Assembly: GCA_020436025.1 (NCBI GenBank)
Contig: JAGQYP010000007.1
Coordinates: forward strand, 1-64,000
Direction: 5' to 3'
DNA length: 64,000 bases
Origin: Crocinitomicaceae bacterium
Lineage (GTDB): Bacteria; Bacteroidota; Bacteroidia; Flavobacteriales_D; Crocinitomicaceae
The notes beneath the pieces are model-generated. The model was not told the origin of the DNA, searched no databases, and was given only the letters and a program-made list of their open reading frames with translations. Below, in pieces: positions 1,158 to 11,362 of the stretch (its first letter is position 1; the number at the start of each line of letters is the position of its first letter). A program made the translations under genes and the position numbers.

Positions 1158-1874
1158 ATGAGATTTTTCATCTTATTCATATTATCACTTTTTCTCTTCT
1201 CCTGCGGAAATCAACAATTCGCAAAAAGACGCTATACCAAAGGGGTGTATGTGGAGAAGCGCACGAATGTGGCAAGGGGAAAGGGGAAAGTGGTAAGTGA
1301 TAAGTATGGGGTTGCTAAGCGAGAAAATGGATCTAAAAATAATAATGAAGTCTCTGAAAATGAGAAGAAAATCAAACCAACTTCTTCGAAAAAAGAACTA
1401 GTTGTAAAAGTTGAAGAAAAGAAGAATGAAGAATATTCTCCAATCAAACCGCAAGAAATTCCATTAGATGATCTTATTTCCAATGATGGAAATCCAGAAT
1501 TAGATGCAAACCCAAAAGAAGTGGGACCGCCTGAAACTGAAGATGGGGAAGTACTGAGAAAGTCGAGAAAGGCCGATAGTTTGGGCTTAGCATCTGGAAT
1601 CATGGGATATACGGCTCTTGGATTACTTTTGATTACAGGCTTGCTTATTTTCATTCTTTGGATTGTCTTTTACGTTGGCCTAATAAGCTGGGCACTGGTT
1701 TCGATTATTGCACAATTCCTTTATTACGGAAGTATGGCGCTTGGTATTGCGGCGCTTGTGACCGGTGCTATTTCCTACGCAAGAGGAGAAAACGGAATGG
1801 CGCTTGCCGGAATCATTATTGGGGCTATTCTTCTTTTACTGTTGATCATTACCTTAATTGCCGTTCTGGTTTAG
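1158..1874 (+). CDS. Lipoprotein with C-terminal membrane helices, paralogue 1 of 3
   Basis: 238 aa. A lipoprotein signal ends in LFSC with the lipidated cysteine at about residue 16. It is followed at once by FAKRRYTKGVYVEKR, a block shared nearly unchanged with the next two genes. A charged, low-complexity Lys/Glu linker follows (about 40-135), then three or four hydrophobic helices to the C terminus, with a glycine-rich turn resembling DUF4190-type proteins. A lipid anchor plus several membrane helices implies the inner membrane. It is divergent from the crotonase gene and first of a tandem set. Function unknown. Confidence 0.75.
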   Translation: MRFFILFILSLFLFSCGNQQFAKRRYTKGVYVEKRTNVARGKGKVVSDKYGVAKRENGSKNNNEVSENEKKIKPTSSKKELVVKVEEKKNEEYSPIKPQEIPLDDLISNDGNPELDANPKEVGPPETEDGEVLRKSRKADSLGLASGIMGYTALGLLLITGLLIFILWIVFYVGLISWALVSIIAQFLYYGSMALGIAALVTGAISYARGENGMALAGIIIGAILLLLLIITLIAVLV

Positions 1875-1924
1875 CAATTTTCATTTCTTGCGATTTTCGC
1901 AAATTTTCTAGCAAACTCATCCCT

Positions 1925-1932
1925 TAATTTTG
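1925..1932 (+). promoter_or_regulatory. Promoter -7 element for lipoprotein paralogues 2 and 3
   Basis: TAATTTTG matches TANNTTTG and ends 21 bases before the ATG at 1954. This suggests paralogues 2 and 3 can be transcribed independently of paralogue 1. Confidence 0.6.
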
Positions 1933-1953
1933 GTTCAAACTAAAATTTGAATC

Positions 1954-2622
1954 ATGGGAAAAGTAATCTACTATACACGACTGATCTTATTATTGTGGCT
2001 GCTTTTTAGTTGCGGAACCAATAATTTTGCAAAGCGTCGATACATGAAAGGTGTTTATGTGGAGAAGCGATCTGTGGCTTCGAGTAGAAAAATGAAAGCC
2101 GAACATCAAACAAAAAATTCTGAGGTAGCTAAAAAATTTACTGATGAAAAAGAGGAGAATAAATCAAATTTGAATCTTACAATCATTGAAATCGAGCAAG
2201 ATCCTGAAGAAATCCAAAGGCAATATGAAAGATTCGAAAAAAATGATAATCTCCAAAAAGATCAGGAAAGCAACAAATCTCATGTTCCAATAAACAAAAC
2301 AACATTTCAAGCCTATTCAGTTCCAGTATCTTCTCCTGCACCTTCATACTATCCTGCCCCACTATTCATTTGGAGTACGATCTTATCTCTATTTGGATGG
2401 GCGATGGTTTTAGTGGACATTTTTGTTTCCCTTGAAGGGCTTTTGGCATTGTTTTTAGGATTGCCCATTGGAGTGGCTGCTTTGGTCATGTCCATAATTT
2501 CTGTTGTACGAGCTTTTGCCTGGGATTATGGTACTTTCGGTAAAGTAATGGCCATTATTAGTCTGGTACTTGCCGTTTCACTTACCATCATTTCGATCAT
2601 CGTCTTTATTGGATTAATCTAA
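1954..2622 (+). CDS. Lipoprotein with C-terminal membrane helices, paralogue 2 of 3
   Basis: 222 aa. Lipobox LFSC with cysteine at about residue 20, then the shared block FAKRRYMKGVYVEKRS. A charged linker rich in Lys, Glu and Asn spans about 45-115 and a Pro/Ser/Tyr stretch about 117-132. Two to three hydrophobic helices follow (IWSTILSLFGWAMVLVDIFV, the LLALFLGLPIGVAALVM region, and a final helix). It has its own promoter word and is followed after 11 bases by paralogue 3. The nucleotide sequence encoding the block (cgtcgatacatgaaaggtgt) is identical in paralogue 3, pointing to recent duplication or conversion of that part. Function unknown. Confidence 0.75.
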   Translation: MGKVIYYTRLILLLWLLFSCGTNNFAKRRYMKGVYVEKRSVASSRKMKAEHQTKNSEVAKKFTDEKEENKSNLNLTIIEIEQDPEEIQRQYERFEKNDNLQKDQESNKSHVPINKTTFQAYSVPVSSPAPSYYPAPLFIWSTILSLFGWAMVLVDIFVSLEGLLALFLGLPIGVAALVMSIISVVRAFAWDYGTFGKVMAIISLVLAVSLTIISIIVFIGLI

Positions 2623-2633
2623 ACTATCTTTTT

Positions 2634-3692
2634 ATGAAACAACTATCCTATTTATTCAAAATCTTTATTCTGATTTTTCTAATCCACAGTTGTGCAAATA
2701 GCAATTTCACGAAGCGTCGATACATGAAAGGTGTTTATGTGGAGAAACATAGTGGTGCCAGGAGTCAAAAGCGGAAAGCGGAAAGTAAGAAGTTCATTAC
2801 TCAAAATGATAAAAATGGACAGGGTGAAAAAAAGGATGAGAATAAAATCGTTCCAACTAAAGATTTTTCGGAAGAAATACTAGATAAAAATGAATTACAA
2901 CCACAAGAAAAGTTCAATCATGTCTCTGATGATCCCCTAACAAAAGAAGTTACGGAAACAAAACTTCCTATTGATGAATCTTCATTACCAAAAGTATCCG
3001 AAGAAGATGAAGAGGAGTTATCAAAAGACCCTATTGTAAAAAAGCAAATTACCGTTGGAATCATTCTACTCATTTTAGGAGTCATTTTAGCAATAATTGG
3101 TTTCTCAAGTTTATTTTGGTTTTTAGTTCCTGTTTTTTATTTCCTATTTGTTTCCGCTGGGATAGTCATGGGGATTGTAGGAGCTGTTTTTCTTGGGGTA
3201 GGCTTAAGAAACAAGCGATTAGGCAAAGACTACAAAAAAATAGTTCAGGACATCAGAGTCAAGAAAGGGACCAATTGGAAAGGGAAATTACGAAAAGGAT
3301 TTACTCTTTATTTATTGGGAATTCTAATGATTTTAATAGCGTTTATAGCGGCGATAGTAGCAGTATTTACTTATTTTCTCTTCGCTTTATTCGCAGCCAT
3401 CTATTTAATCTATCCTGGGATCATTATGTTGAGTATTGGTCTTGCTCGTGTATTTCTATACCTTAACGTAAAAGGTATTAAAACTGAAAAAAATAAAAGT
3501 CTTGTAATTGGCACTTTTGTCTTACTACTTTCCTTAATCCCCATTGGATTGCTAGTACCCATATTTGGATTCATTTTTGGGACGCTAGGTGTTTGGATTT
3601 TGCTTGGTTTGGCCATTGCTATATTTATAGCAGCTCTTGTAATGGCAATTTTGACCTTGATCGAACTTAAAAAATCTTATAAAAAGATTTAA
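2634..3692 (+). CDS. Lipoprotein with C-terminal membrane helices, paralogue 3 of 3
   Basis: 352 aa, the longest of the three. Lipobox IHSC with cysteine at about residue 20, block FTKRRYMKGVYVEKH, then an acidic/basic linker to about residue 135. Two blocks of paired hydrophobic helices follow (about 138-195 and 225-345) separated by a basic loop, which looks like an internal duplication of the membrane module. Only 11 bases separate it from paralogue 2, so the two are probably co-transcribed. It converges on the thioesterase gene with a 9-base gap. Function unknown. Confidence 0.75.
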   Translation: MKQLSYLFKIFILIFLIHSCANSNFTKRRYMKGVYVEKHSGARSQKRKAESKKFITQNDKNGQGEKKDENKIVPTKDFSEEILDKNELQPQEKFNHVSDDPLTKEVTETKLPIDESSLPKVSEEDEEELSKDPIVKKQITVGIILLILGVILAIIGFSSLFWFLVPVFYFLFVSAGIVMGIVGAVFLGVGLRNKRLGKDYKKIVQDIRVKKGTNWKGKLRKGFTLYLLGILMILIAFIAAIVAVFTYFLFALFAAIYLIYPGIIMLSIGLARVFLYLNVKGIKTEKNKSLVIGTFVLLLSLIPIGLLVPIFGFIFGTLGVWILLGLAIAIFIAALVMAILTLIELKKSYKKI

Positions 3693-5939: not shown

Positions 5940-6617
5940 ATGGAAGTACATTTATCCAATTTTACGATTCAAGTCAATGACAATATTTATCTAAAAAACC
6001 CTGATTCTAGCGATTTAGGTAAGAAAATCATTAGTCACTCCATCATGATGATCGAGCAAGATGGACTTGAAAATTTTACTTTTCGAAAACTGGCGAAAAG
6101 GATCAAATCCACCGAAGCATCCATTTACCGCTATTTTGAAAGTAAGCACAAATTGCTTCTTTACTTGATTTCCTGGTATTGGGGTTGGATGGAATACAAG
6201 CTGGTGTTTGGAACCGCAAATATTGAAGATCCTCAAATCAGACTAGAAAAGGCCATTAAAATTTTGACGGAAACGATAGAAGAAGACCGCACTTTTTCTC
6301 ATGTCAACGAAGTCAAATTGAGTCAGATCGTCATTTCTGAGTCTTCTAAAGTGTACTTAACCAAAGATGTAGATGAGGAAAATCGAAAAGGGATTTTTAC
6401 GCCTTACAAGCAAATAGTTGAACGAGTGGGTCAGATAATTTTAGAGATCAATCCAAATTACAAATACCCGCACATGTTAGTTTCTACAGTGGTTGAAGGG
6501 GCTCATTTGCAAAGATATTTTGCCGATCATCTTCCCCGACTCACCAACAATATTGATGGGGAAGATTCAGTCGTGAATTTTTATATGGATATGGTCATTA
6601 AAAACATTCAGAAATAA
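5940..6617 (+). CDS. TetR/AcrR family transcriptional regulator
   Basis: 225 aa. The N-terminal helix-turn-helix is clear at about 30-78: a FTFRKLAKRIKSTE region followed by ASIYRYFESKHKLL, the recognition helix typical of TetR proteins. The C-terminal ligand-binding part is specific to this protein. Its stop codon overlaps the ATG of the ABC exporter by one base (TAATG), so regulator and exporter are translated from one message. The natural reading is an autorepressor released by a substrate of the exporter; the near-palindrome in its promoter supports this. The ligand is unknown. Confidence 0.9.
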   Translation: MEVHLSNFTIQVNDNIYLKNPDSSDLGKKIISHSIMMIEQDGLENFTFRKLAKRIKSTEASIYRYFESKHKLLLYLISWYWGWMEYKLVFGTANIEDPQIRLEKAIKILTETIEEDRTFSHVNEVKLSQIVISESSKVYLTKDVDEENRKGIFTPYKQIVERVGQIILEINPNYKYPHMLVSTVVEGAHLQRYFADHLPRLTNNIDGEDSVVNFYMDMVIKNIQK

Positions 6618-8284
6618 TGGAAAAAATAACTCCCGTAAATAGATTGTTTCGTCTGCTGAAACCAGACAGCAAAGAGATCAGAAATGTCTACGTATATGCT
6701 ATTTTCAACGGACTTGTCGCATTAACACTACCTCTTGGGATTCAAGCCATTGTGAATTTGATCCAAGGTGGAAGCGTGAGTACATCCTGGATTGTATTGG
6801 TTTGTATTGTGGTTTTTGGTGTGGCTGCCTCAGGATTATTGAGGATTGCACAACTTCGAATTACTGAAAACTTGCAACAGAAAATCTTTACCAGAGCAGC
6901 TTTTGAATTTGCTTATCGAATTCCAAAGATCAAATTGGAGGAACTCTATAACAAATATGCTCCGGAATTAATGAACCGGTTTTTTGATGTGATTTCCATT
7001 CAAAAAGGGCTTTCCAAAATATTGATTGATTTCTCTGCGGCAGGATTGCAAGTGATTTTTGGTCTATTGCTCCTATCCTTTTACCATCCTTTTTTCATCA
7101 TTTTCTCTCTGATTTTGATCGCTTTAGTCTTTGCTATTTTCAGATTTACCTCCAAAAGAGGATTACTAACAAGCTTAAGAGAATCCAAATACAAATATGA
7201 AGTGGTTTACTGGTTGGAAGAAATCGCGCGAACCTCGAATGCATTCAAATTGGCTGGTAAAACAAGCCTACACCTGGAAAAAACAGACAAAAATGTAGGG
7301 AATTATCTAAGAGAAAGAGAAGCGCACTTTAAAGTTTTGGTGAGACAATACTACTTGTTAATCATTTTTAATGTGGTAGTTGCTTCCGGATTGTTGGCAT
7401 TAGGTGGAATTTTGGTGATGGAGCAATTGATGAATATTGGTCAGTTCATCGCAGCAGAGATCATCGTGCTTTTGATCATGAACTCCGTTGAAAAGCTGAT
7501 TGTGAGTTTGGAAACCATTTACGATGTATTGACTTCAGTAGAAAAAATAGCGCAAGTAACTGACTTGGAAATTGAAAATGAAGACGGGATCGACTTGCAA
7601 AAGGAATGTGATCATTGTGGCTTAAGCGTAAAACTTGAAAGACTTTCATTTGCTTATCCGGAGCAAGAAGTCAATACCCTGAAAAGCGTTGATTTGGAAA
7701 TTGAGTCTGGTGAAAAAATTGTGATTGCAGGTGAAAATGGTTCCGGAAAAAGTACCCTTCTTCAAATCATTGGATCTCTTTACGTTCCAACGGAAGGAAT
7801 GATTTTTTACAATAATGTGAGTCAGTCAAGTCTGGATCTCTGTTCCGTGCATACCACAATTGGAGACGCCATCAGCCAGGAAGATTTATTTGAAGGAACG
7901 ATCGTAGAGAATATCACCATGGGTCGTCCGGCGGCTTCAATAGAGAACGTGAAATGGGCCATTGAGAAGCTCGGATTGGGCGATTATGTTTCCCATTTAC
8001 CCAAAGGTTATGATACCATTTTAGATCCAACTGGAAGAAAAATTCCAAGATCGATTAGTCAGAAATTACTCCTGGCAAGAAGCATTGTCATCAAACCAAA
8101 ATTACTGCTACTGGAAGATGCCTTCGAGCATTTTGAGGTGGAAGAAAGACAAAGAATTGTCGATTTTCTGACAGACAAAGAAAATGAATGGACCATGGTC
8201 GCGGTATCCTCGGATCCTTATTTATCAAGTAAAGTAGATCGGGTATTGATCATGAAAGAAGGTAAAATACTGAATCCAAAATAA
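6617..8284 (+). CDS. ABC exporter (membrane domain fused to degenerate ATPase domain)
   Basis: 555 aa: a six-helix exporter domain (about 20-290) followed by a nucleotide-binding domain (about 330-555). Walker A is intact (GENGSGKST, 372-380) and the Q-loop region ISQED is present. The remaining motifs depart from canon. The LSGGQ signature position reads IPRSI (476-480), Walker B ends in Glu-Asp (E500-D501) instead of Asp-Glu, and the switch histidine is replaced in the VSSDP segment. It lacks a C39 peptidase domain. It lies between TetR and HlyD/TolC partners, so it should be the inner-membrane motor of a type I-like tripartite exporter. ATP hydrolysis may be slow or unusual. Confidence 0.88.
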   Translation: MEKITPVNRLFRLLKPDSKEIRNVYVYAIFNGLVALTLPLGIQAIVNLIQGGSVSTSWIVLVCIVVFGVAASGLLRIAQLRITENLQQKIFTRAAFEFAYRIPKIKLEELYNKYAPELMNRFFDVISIQKGLSKILIDFSAAGLQVIFGLLLLSFYHPFFIIFSLILIALVFAIFRFTSKRGLLTSLRESKYKYEVVYWLEEIARTSNAFKLAGKTSLHLEKTDKNVGNYLREREAHFKVLVRQYYLLIIFNVVVASGLLALGGILVMEQLMNIGQFIAAEIIVLLIMNSVEKLIVSLETIYDVLTSVEKIAQVTDLEIENEDGIDLQKECDHCGLSVKLERLSFAYPEQEVNTLKSVDLEIESGEKIVIAGENGSGKSTLLQIIGSLYVPTEGMIFYNNVSQSSLDLCSVHTTIGDAISQEDLFEGTIVENITMGRPAASIENVKWAIEKLGLGDYVSHLPKGYDTILDPTGRKIPRSISQKLLLARSIVIKPKLLLLEDAFEHFEVEERQRIVDFLTDKENEWTMVAVSSDPYLSSKVDRVLIMKEGKILNPK

Positions 8285-8291
8285 TTGAGTT

Positions 8292-9650
8292 ATGTTAAAC
8301 ATTTCAAAACATTCAGTAAAGCAAGAGATTGACAAGGAAAACTTGAAATCTCTAAGAGAAGTAGAAAGCAAAGTTTCCAAAAAGGTATTGCGCAGGATGT
8401 TGTATTCTTTCAGCGCCGTTCTCTTAATAATTTTGTTTCTCCCGTGGACGCAAACCATACAATCGGATGGGAATGTTACCACTTTGAAGCCAGATCAAAG
8501 ACCACAAACCATTCATTCCATTATTGCAGGAAGAATAGAAAAATGGTTTGTCATGGAAGGTGATTTTGTGAAGAAAGGGGATACTATTCTGTTCATTTCA
8601 GAGATCAAGGATGAATACTTTGATCCCAATTTGCTTTCACGAACGGAAGAGCAATTACAATCAAAAGAATTGTCGGTAAAATCCTATTTCGAAAAAGTAC
8701 AAGCATTGGATAGCCAGATTGATGCTTTGGAAAGGAATTCATTACTCAAATTGGAACAGCTCAAAAACAAACTGATTCAGGCCAAACTAAAAGTGAAGTC
8801 GGATAGTATTGATTTGGTTGCAGCAGCAACAAATGAAAAAATTGCAGAACAGCAATACGATCGTTTGAAAGAGCTATATGATCAGGGATTAAAATCTAAA
8901 ACCGATCTTGAAAACAGAAATCTCAAACTGCAAGAAGCACAAGCTAAAAAGATTTCCGCTGAAAACAAGTTCCTGACTAGTCAGAATGAGGTCATCAATG
9001 CGCAAGTGGATTTGAATTCGATTCAGGCAGAATTCCAGAATAAAATCTCAAAGGCGGAATCAGATAAATTCACAGCCCTTTCAAGCATGTACGATGCAGA
9101 AGCAGTAGTAACCAAACTCCAAAATCAGTACATGAATTATTCGGTACGAACAGGCATGTACTACATTACAGCCCCTCAGGATGGGTATGTTACCAAAGCC
9201 ATTCAGCAAGGTATTGGAGAAACGGTAAAAGAAGGGGCTTCCATCGTGAGCATCATGCCTGCAGATTATGAATTAGCAGTTGAAATGTACATACGACCTA
9301 TTGATCTTCCGCTAATGGAAAAAGGACAGCATGTTCGAATTCAATTTGACGGTTGGCCTGCAATTGTCTTCTCAGGATGGCCCAATACCAGTTATGGAAC
9401 CTACGGAGGAACGGTCTATGCGATAGATAATTTTATCAGTGAAAATGGGAAATACAGAGTTTTGGTGGCTCCAGATCCAAATGATCCACCTTGGCCAAAA
9501 GCATTAAGAGTAGGTTCCGGGACAAGAGCCATGGTCATGCTGAAAGATGTACCTGTTTGGTATGAACTCTGGAGGAAAATCAATGGATTCCCGCCGGAGT
9601 ACTATCATACTGAATCCAATTCGGACCATACAAAAAAGGAGAAAAAATGA
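8292..9650 (+). CDS. HlyD-family periplasmic adaptor
   Basis: 452 aa. One membrane helix at about 36-52, a biotinyl-lipoyl-like half (IIAGRIEKWFVMEGDFVKKGD, about 77-98), a long coiled coil rich in Lys/Glu/Gln (about 110-285), the second lipoyl half (ITAPQDGYVTKAIQQGIGETV) and a beta-barrel C-terminal part. This is the membrane-fusion protein of a tripartite exporter. It starts 7 bases after the ABC gene and its stop overlaps the TolC-like gene (ATGA). Confidence 0.92.
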   Translation: MLNISKHSVKQEIDKENLKSLREVESKVSKKVLRRMLYSFSAVLLIILFLPWTQTIQSDGNVTTLKPDQRPQTIHSIIAGRIEKWFVMEGDFVKKGDTILFISEIKDEYFDPNLLSRTEEQLQSKELSVKSYFEKVQALDSQIDALERNSLLKLEQLKNKLIQAKLKVKSDSIDLVAAATNEKIAEQQYDRLKELYDQGLKSKTDLENRNLKLQEAQAKKISAENKFLTSQNEVINAQVDLNSIQAEFQNKISKAESDKFTALSSMYDAEAVVTKLQNQYMNYSVRTGMYYITAPQDGYVTKAIQQGIGETVKEGASIVSIMPADYELAVEMYIRPIDLPLMEKGQHVRIQFDGWPAIVFSGWPNTSYGTYGGTVYAIDNFISENGKYRVLVAPDPNDPPWPKALRVGSGTRAMVMLKDVPVWYELWRKINGFPPEYYHTESNSDHTKKEKK

Positions 9651-11032
9651 AGACATTAATGTTTTTTCTATTTCTAATTCCAGTTAGCCTTTTAGGTCAG
9701 AACGTACTGACTTACGAAGAGTTTAACTCCATTGTCAAAGAAAATCATCCCTTGGCTAAGAGCGCAGAATTAAGAGCCTTGAGCGGTCAGTATCAGCTGA
9801 AATATGCCAAAGGAAATTTTGACGCCAAGATCTTTTCAGACATCGATCAAAAGTACTTTGACGAAAAGAAATATTATAGTCTGATGAATTCAGGTTTGTC
9901 CGTGCCCGCTTGGTTTGGAGTCGAAGTAAAAGCTGGATATGAGCACAATGTTGGAACCAATGTCAGTCGCCAGAACATAACACCAGCAGCTGGATTGTGG
10001 TACGCAGGCATCTCTGTTCCACTTGGTCAAGGTTTATTGATTGATGAAAGAAGAGTAGAGCTCAGAAAAGCTCGGTTGACACAAGAAATCTCAAAACAAG
10101 AACAGGTATTGTTAATGAACGACCTACTCTACGAAGCAGGAATCGCGTATTGGAATTGGTTTGAGGCCTACAACGATTTGCAAGTTTATCAAGAAGCTGT
10201 GCAGTTGACTCAAGATCGCTTTAACGCTGTATTCAACGAGGCTAAAAGTGGAAACAGACCCTATATTGATACTTTGGAAGCTGGAATTCAACTCCAAAAT
10301 CGAAAATTAGCCCTTCAAGAGGCTGAATTAAAATTTAAAAATACTGGGCTGAAATTGACAGTCTATCTTTGGGCGGAAGGATTTATTCCACTTGAATTAC
10401 AAACCGGTACGGTACCCCCTAAAAGGAATGATCTTTCGATTAATGAAGTGGCGGAAGCATTTTTACTAAGTGCAGATACAGTCAGTTTAAGTCACCCAGA
10501 AATTTTCAGAACCAATTTCAAAATCGATCAACTTGAGCTGGATAAAAGATGGAAAATTGAGCAATTCATTCCGAAAGTTCGCATCAATTATAATTTCCTT
10601 ACTGAGCCTTTTGGGGGACAAATGTTTCCGGACTATTCCATTAATAATTATAAATGGGGATTAAATTTCTCAATGCCTATAAGTTTTGCGAAAGAACGAC
10701 AAGCCTACAATTTGGCTAAAGTGAAGCTTCAAACTGCCGAACTGGAGCTGGAAACCAAAAGAAAATTGATTGAAACCAAAGCTTTAAGCGCCATCAATAA
10801 ATGGCAAACTACAAAGAGTCAGGTGGAATTGTATCGAAGAACAGTTTCCGATTATTTGAAGTTATTGGAAGGAGAAAGAACCATGTTTCAAACAGGAGAA
10901 AGTTCTTTATTTATGGTCAATTCCAGAGAATTGGGTTATATCAATGCTCAAATAAAATTAATTGAGTTGATCACTAAAAACCATATGGCGGAACTGGAAA
11001 CGAATTATGTTTTTGGGGTTTTAGGAAAATAA
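9647..11032 (+). CDS. TolC-family outer-membrane efflux protein
   Basis: 461 aa with a signal peptide (cleavage near SLLGQN). The helical repeats typical of TolC proteins appear twice, for example LRKARLTQEISKQEQVLLM and LAKVKLQTAELELETKRKL. Forms the outer-membrane channel for the ABC/HlyD pair. Start ATG overlaps the HlyD stop by 4 bases. Confidence 0.9.
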   Translation: MKTLMFFLFLIPVSLLGQNVLTYEEFNSIVKENHPLAKSAELRALSGQYQLKYAKGNFDAKIFSDIDQKYFDEKKYYSLMNSGLSVPAWFGVEVKAGYEHNVGTNVSRQNITPAAGLWYAGISVPLGQGLLIDERRVELRKARLTQEISKQEQVLLMNDLLYEAGIAYWNWFEAYNDLQVYQEAVQLTQDRFNAVFNEAKSGNRPYIDTLEAGIQLQNRKLALQEAELKFKNTGLKLTVYLWAEGFIPLELQTGTVPPKRNDLSINEVAEAFLLSADTVSLSHPEIFRTNFKIDQLELDKRWKIEQFIPKVRINYNFLTEPFGGQMFPDYSINNYKWGLNFSMPISFAKERQAYNLAKVKLQTAELELETKRKLIETKALSAINKWQTTKSQVELYRRTVSDYLKLLEGERTMFQTGESSLFMVNSRELGYINAQIKLIELITKNHMAELETNYVFGVLGK

Positions 11033-11044
11033 AAATTTTGTGCT

Positions 11045-11362
11045 ATGATTTTATTAAGAATATCATCTTCGGAACGCAGTAAAATAGAGGAAATAGCTGC
11101 TTTATTGCTCGAAAAACATTTAATAATAGATGTTAATGTCAAGCAAAACATTGAGAGATGGAATTTGGTGATGAACAAGATTCAAAAATCTTCCATTTAT
11201 TTACTTACTGGTAAAACACGCGCCAATCTTTTCAGCAAAATTGATGAAATGTTGAAAGAAAAATATGGTGAAAACATGCCTGAACTGTATTCACTCCCTA
11301 TCGTTAACATGGATTGGCAGCAAGCGGATGAACTGCAAAAATTCATTCCGCCCAATAGTTGA
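11045..11362 (+). CDS. CutA-like protein
   Basis: 105 aa, the size of a CutA1 domain. The core resembles CutA: a first half with AALLLEKHLIIDVNV, a KTRANLFSKIDEMLKEKYGEN helix and the PELYSLPIVNMDWQQAD segment (CutA consensus: PEIIALPI...Y..W). CutA proteins form trimers; the old link to divalent-cation tolerance is debated. The gene follows the TolC-like gene by 12 bases, so it is probably the last gene of the exporter operon, an unusual partner. The N-terminal part is divergent, so the family call is good but not certain. Confidence 0.7.
   Translation: MILLRISSSERSKIEEIAALLLEKHLIIDVNVKQNIERWNLVMNKIQKSSIYLLTGKTRANLFSKIDEMLKEKYGENMPELYSLPIVNMDWQQADELQKFIPPNS

Follow-up and report, generated by a model that had tools for sequence, protein, structure and literature searches.

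Type 1 secretion exporters of the HlyB/LssB/PrtD type are close counterparts of the protein described here, P0001, which resembles them in its operon partners and in the fold of its transmembrane domain (TMD) and nucleotide-binding domain (NBD). A second group of related systems is represented by TmrAB, TM287/288 and TAP, heterodimeric exporters in which one of the sites is degenerate. In EmrAB-TolC, a secondary-active inner-membrane pump of the MFS is joined to a HlyD-type adaptor and TolC. The ATPase is the defining part of ABC transporters, and a secondary-active role of their membrane domains is unsettled. Support for such a role comes from LmrA and MsbA: proton-coupled ethidium transport, in which acidic transmembrane residues were important, has been reported for LmrA truncated to its membrane domain (PMC2704374) and likewise for truncated MsbA (PMC4979069).

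P0001 is encoded at 6617..8284 on the forward strand (+) of the window, by which the whole analysed stretch of 64,000 nucleotides is meant, and comprises 555 aa. Translation, Pfam, alignment and structural model characterize it as a predicted pseudo-ATPase ABC half-exporter. The gene is part of a tight operon with the order TetR-ABC-HlyD-TolC, followed by a CutA-like gene. The first gene encodes a TetR-family regulator of 225 aa (5940..6617, +; PF00440, 38 bits), and at the junction TAATG one base is common to the TetR stop and the ABC start. Located 7 bp past the ABC stop is the start of hlyD, encoding a HlyD-type periplasmic adaptor of 452 aa (8292..9650, +; PF13437, 45.8 bits; TIGR01843, 79.5 bits, which is below that model's own cut-off). 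Its end is overlapped by 4 bases by the start of tolC, which encodes a TolC-type outer-membrane channel of 461 aa (9647..11032, +; PF02321, 120.9 bits). The gene set of a type 1 secretion system, consisting of ABC exporter, HlyD-type adaptor and TolC, is thus present. The CutA1-like protein (11045-11362, +; PF03091, 31.8 bits) starts 12 bp past tolC; a relative of it is found near the operon in 7 of 100 loci, which were searched for conserved extra operon genes and yielded no other. Elsewhere in the window (1158-3692, +), three successive genes display a similar lipoprotein-like N-terminus ending in KRRYxKGVYVEKR, followed by dissimilar membrane regions, and look like tandem paralogues with a kept N-terminal stretch.

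The AlphaFold model of P0001 (pLDDT 91.7) displays the complete type IV exporter fold with six long helices and long intracellular loops; it represents a monomer, and the domain swap of the type IV exporter TMD is thus outside its reach. The best structural matches, extending over about 545 residues, are TmrAB (Z 29.9), TM287/288 (Z 29.3) and HlyB (8dck, Z 29.0), and the closest NCBIfam models are TIGR03375 (177 bits) and TIGR01846, both with scores far below the cut-offs. The TMD (residues 1-317; 6617..7567, +) is strongly conserved and corresponds to the portion that is retained alone in the TMD-only relatives described below. It includes the region of coupling helix 2 (residues 206-217; 7232..7267, +), which is the NBD-docking loop. 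Two acidic residues are situated in TM6: Glu281 (7457..7459, +), which is about 99% conserved in the family and not found in the canonical ABC outgroup, and Glu292 (7490..7492, +), with about 99% conservation among the full-length degenerate members. The pseudo-NBD (residues 335-555; 7619..8281, +) is folded according to Pfam match, alignment and model, and is recognized as a P-loop domain of the ABC fold by PF00005 with 66.7 bits.

Within the pseudo-NBD, translation and alignment show an intact Walker A motif, GENGSGKST (residues 372-380; 7730..7756, +). The LSGGQ-type signature is replaced by IPRSI (residues 476-480; 8042..8056, +), aligned in register with the GxxLSGGQRQRIALARAL stretch of canonical paralogues. 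Walker B terminates in LLLLED, so that Glu-Asp (residues 500-501; 8114..8119, +) occupies the place of Asp and the catalytic Glu. At the D-loop position EHFE (residues 504-507; 8126..8137, +) is found for SALD, and at the H-loop position Ser532 (8210..8212, +) is found for His, within VSSDP. The first-pass annotation had reported the Walker A, signature, Walker B and H-loop sequences at these positions and had placed the gene in a TetR-HlyD-TolC operon; the former are confirmed by translation and alignment, the latter is borne out by the Pfam matches of the neighbours. A further loss is that of the Q-loop Gln, replaced by Ser420 (7874..7876, +; alignment). Canonical ABC proteins from this genome and related ones can be aligned through these motifs and display LSGGQ-like signatures, D-E (or D-D) and the H-loop His in nearly all cases. 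Since in addition 209 orthologues share the loss, it reflects neither chance nor a slip of the alignment. In P0001 the modeled fold is retained and the catalytic residues are gone.

Orthologues of P0001 with 38-86% identity are present in 23 of 38 relatives. A scan of public genomes yielded at least 541 confirmed candidate stretches, with Flavobacterium, Olleya, Aquimarina, Salegentibacter, Maribacter, Lewinella, Roseivirga, Saprospiraceae and others among the matches listed. Signature, Asp-Glu pair and H-loop His are missing in all 80 stretches that were analysed out of these at least 541. Among 209 unique full-length degenerate relatives, an intact signature does not occur (0/209), the H-loop His is found in two (1%), Asp-Glu in six (3%), Glu together with His in none, and the Q-loop Gln in 14. 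Walker A is kept more often, with GK[ST] in 165 of the 209 sequences (79%) and Lys378 in 94%. The replacements differ from member to member: ED is the most frequent substitute for Asp-Glu (77/209, 37%), next to KD, EN, TD, EE, DD, DN, ND and others, and IPRS-like signatures are limited to 24 sequences (11%). This variability points to repeated loss and not to a new conserved catalytic block. The suggestion of the first-pass annotation that the catalytic residues had changed together as a block, for which it proposed an alignment of IPRSI and Glu-Asp across orthologues, is therefore not upheld by that alignment, and the seemingly swapped pair represents a loss. The opposite outcome that it had named, orthologues with normal motifs, was encountered neither in the 80 stretches analysed (of at least 541) nor among the orthologues with 38-86% identity.

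The gene neighbourhood is well conserved. In 100 loci, which overlap to some extent between two sources, HlyD follows the ABC gene in 99, TolC is present in 91, some of the loci lacking it ending at a contig edge, and TetR is found upstream in 71. A canonical ABC gene, and hence an adjacent complementary half-exporter, is found inside none of the 100 operons. Locally, this agrees with the earlier assertion that no partner ATPase is available.

A phylum-wide sample added two further kinds of relatives, basal members and short TMD-only members. The basal members, found outside the window's class, are mostly about 690-830 aa long and carry an N-terminal extension; in addition, there is a group of 583 aa. 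They retain Walker A, Asp-Glu and mostly the His, and their signatures are altered to LPYGV, VPDGL, LSTGE or LSTGQ. D, E and H are all kept in 14 of them, and each of these is without the Q-loop Gln. The extension of the long forms (L174-L186) spans 150-250 aa and is situated where peptidase-type exporters harbor C39 or C39-like domains; no Pfam match was obtained for it in the two long forms scanned.

The TMD-only members (330-385 aa) end just past the linker VTDLxLE, with no NBD after it. Called by the range of the match, this form occurs in 58 genomes, corresponding to 12 of 40, 33 of 96 and 13 of 52 family-bearing genomes in three family samples. A model of a TMD-only protein (pLDDT 75) superimposes on the TMD of HlyB with a TM-score of 0.84 and 2.3 Å. 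In all 27 fetched cases HlyD and TolC directly follow the TMD-only gene, often with an 8 bp overlap. Relocation of the NBD to another gene was considered and rejected: an NBD-like ORF is found in none of the 27 fetched regions, and searches of eight TMD-only genomes, with a sister protein's NBD as query, yielded nothing beyond distant ABC hits (about 20-31% identity), most of them within full-size ABC proteins. Most TMD-only genomes are without a second family member. From these relatives it is evident that the trio needs no fused NBD for its role in their lineages, and they considerably strengthen the notion that no partner ATPase is involved. The TMD is maintained without an NBD in the TMD-only relatives and not in P0001 itself, for which findings on the short forms need not hold. 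A single split gene was found (L250:5343-7525, -), with TMD and pseudo-NBD on two overlapping ORFs of 498 and 236 aa; it possibly represents a second independent step to NBD loss, or a frameshift.

Loss of the NBD is mirrored in the docking loop. Phe210 of the coupling helix is 97% conserved in NBD-bearing relatives and relaxed in the TMD-only members. When the TMD-only proteins are compared with their NBD-bearing sisters, conservation of coupling helix 2 and its arms drops 2.2- to 2.5-fold, as against a 1.1- to 1.4-fold change elsewhere; because the two sets differ in breadth, the contrast between regions weighs more than the absolute values. Such a relaxation is expected if the full-length forms dock their pseudo-NBD and the TMD-only forms have none to dock.

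In a tree of the TMDs, built from 48 rows under LG+C20+F+G4, the proteins of the window's class, degenerate and TMD-only alike, are split from the DEH-type proteins with a support of 100/100. Nine TMD-only proteins group together in a single clade (100/99), which lies within a group (99/98) whose NBD-bearing members have lost the GK[ST] of Walker A. A more extensive quick tree that includes canonical outgroups shows the same nesting, with one degenerate sequence (L025) unresolved at the base. Our reading of the series is that loss would have begun with Q-loop and signature, continued with Glu, His and Asp, later affected Walker A in places and finally removed the whole NBD, mainly once; the early steps in this order are derived from a small number of basal sequences and from a root on a long branch. 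We would give an even chance to the view that the family passed in steps from an ABC pump driven by ATP to an ATP-independent tripartite exporter, ending in natural NBD-free TMDs that operate with HlyD and TolC and are ion-gradient-driven or passive.

For P0001, the reading that we favor is that it probably constitutes the inner-membrane part of a TetR-regulated tripartite exporter that gave up ATP hydrolysis and is driven by an ion or substrate gradient. Its ancestor would have been an ATP-driven type IV ABC exporter in which hydrolysis of ATP was abandoned. The pseudo-NBD would still fold, dock on the TMD and perhaps bind nucleotide through Walker A, without forming a hydrolytic composite site. 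The substrate would pass through the TMD and leave the cell via HlyD-TolC, driven by an ion gradient, with protons most likely, or by its own gradient. The loss of ATP hydrolysis, the docking of the pseudo-NBD, the homodimeric state of P0001 and its function in export are what we infer from the data given above. ATP-independent export by way of an ABC TMD, HlyD and TolC is proposed on the basis of the transport by truncated LmrA and MsbA taken together with the TMD-only relatives. These relatives resemble the engineered LmrA-MD and MsbA-MD in being the TMD of an ABC exporter without NBD. However, the latter were made in the laboratory by truncating working ABC proteins, whereas here the loss is natural, occurs in a HlyD-TolC system and is combined with an inferred transport activity. 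EmrAB-TolC works in the manner proposed for the P0001 trio, except that its pump is an MFS protein and P0001 contributes an ABC TMD.

Coupling to protons, perhaps via Glu281 and Glu292 in TM6, is a speculative extension of this proposal. Both residues are candidates because they are nearly invariant, with Asp replacing Glu292 in 4 of 28 TMD-only members; they provide only a lead, since they predate the loss of the ATPase. That they were gained in compensation can be rejected, as basal members that still have D, E and H carry both of them.

Alternatively, P0001 might contribute an inactive half to a heterodimer or mixed complex, with ATP hydrolysed by a canonical half-exporter or free-standing NBD encoded elsewhere. 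Heterodimeric exporters with a degenerate site are among its best structural matches. P0001 has in common with TmrAB, TM287/288 and TAP a type IV exporter fold that carries a degenerate NBD (Z 29-30), and other ABC exporters are encoded in all genomes. Another ATPase might likewise be recruited in trans, or active ABC dimers might be mixed into the same HlyD-TolC complex. However, the known heterodimers combine their two defects within one composite site and keep the other site working, whereas P0001 has lost the signature, the Walker B pair and the H-loop in the same chain and is without an adjacent partner gene. Judged from the known geometry of ABC sites, loss of the signature and of Glu and His in one chain would leave a P0001 homodimer without any canonical ATP site and would damage both composite sites of a heterodimer with a canonical partner. 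Together with the operons, none of which contains a canonical ABC gene, and the TMD-only relatives, which would leave a lone NBD without dimer partner in genomes mostly devoid of a second family member, this makes a heterodimer unlikely.

A nucleotide-gated conduit, in which ATP bound to Walker A opens or closes the TMD without being hydrolysed, would be in line with the retention of GK[ST] and Lys378 in most full-length members and of Phe210 for docking. Nucleotide binding may indeed still matter in full-length members, given that 79% of the degenerate ones keep Walker A. However, this motif has been lost repeatedly, and in one clade the entire NBD has disappeared while the trio is still there, which renders gating by nucleotide an improbable explanation. 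Equally in need of consideration is that the protein has ceased to be a transporter and that HlyD-TolC uses its TMD as an anchor in the membrane, a scaffold or a sensor. In favor of this, the adaptor and channel are always kept, but constraint extends across the TM helices and peaks in TM6, a pattern to be expected if the transport path is in use, and we regard this possibility as quite improbable. Conservation is unequal in the two domains, the mean column entropy amounting to 1.44 bits in the TMD versus 2.23 bits in the NBD.

Both the TMD and the pseudo-NBD are under purifying selection. Many pairs are saturated at synonymous sites; for close NBD-bearing pairs with unsaturated sites, dN/dS is 0.01-0.07 in the TMD and 0.02-0.16 in the NBD. 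TMD-only pairs display values of about 0.04-0.06, and two pairs reach 0.21-0.22. The idea of a decaying single gene, a pseudogene in progress, accounts for the absence of catalytic motifs but is rejected with near certainty in view of the open frame, an 86% identical and equally degenerate copy in another genome of the genus, hundreds of such relatives and dN/dS << 1. As the first-pass annotation had surmised, P0001 thus belongs to a subfamily with an altered catalytic site, the motifs being missing in all orthologues with 38-86% identity.

As far as sequence can tell, the members of the P0001 family are ABC exporters by descent and fold and not ABC ATPases by function, and the pipeline label 'ABC transporter ATP-binding protein' carried by several of these genes is probably wrong in function. 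In contrast to HlyB-type exporters, the degenerate members are without catalytic motifs, and one clade has dispensed with the NBD. The open-access literature searched yielded no earlier account of a family of ABC exporters that is naturally NBD-less or wholly dead. Evolution appears to have run the experiment of NBD removal, with intermediates and end state living in many cultured and uncultured Bacteroidota. The series lets the order of loss be read, and its natural, stable NBD-free proteins offer themselves for tests of ion coupling.

A search of plasmids revealed full-length degenerate members on those of the Bacteroidota Persicobacter, Aureibacter (with Walker A lost) and Riemerella. In addition, a similarly degenerate relative in Sphingobium extends the picture to Sphingomonadales. 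This protein has no recognisable Walker A and no PF00005 match, shares the TMD hallmarks NRFFE, QK, FYHP, KYEAAHWLE, HF and GQLVAAE, and is accompanied by its own adaptor and TolC genes. Close homologues, assigned by sequence match, are located on plasmids of Novosphingobium, Sphingomonas and Croceicoccus. A gene for the inorganic-carbon transporter DabA, which was not seen upstream of the trio on three other sphingomonad plasmids examined, is situated directly upstream of the degenerate ABC-adaptor-TolC trio on the Sphingobium plasmid pHAL16 (L304:1362-5664; PF10070, 731 bits).
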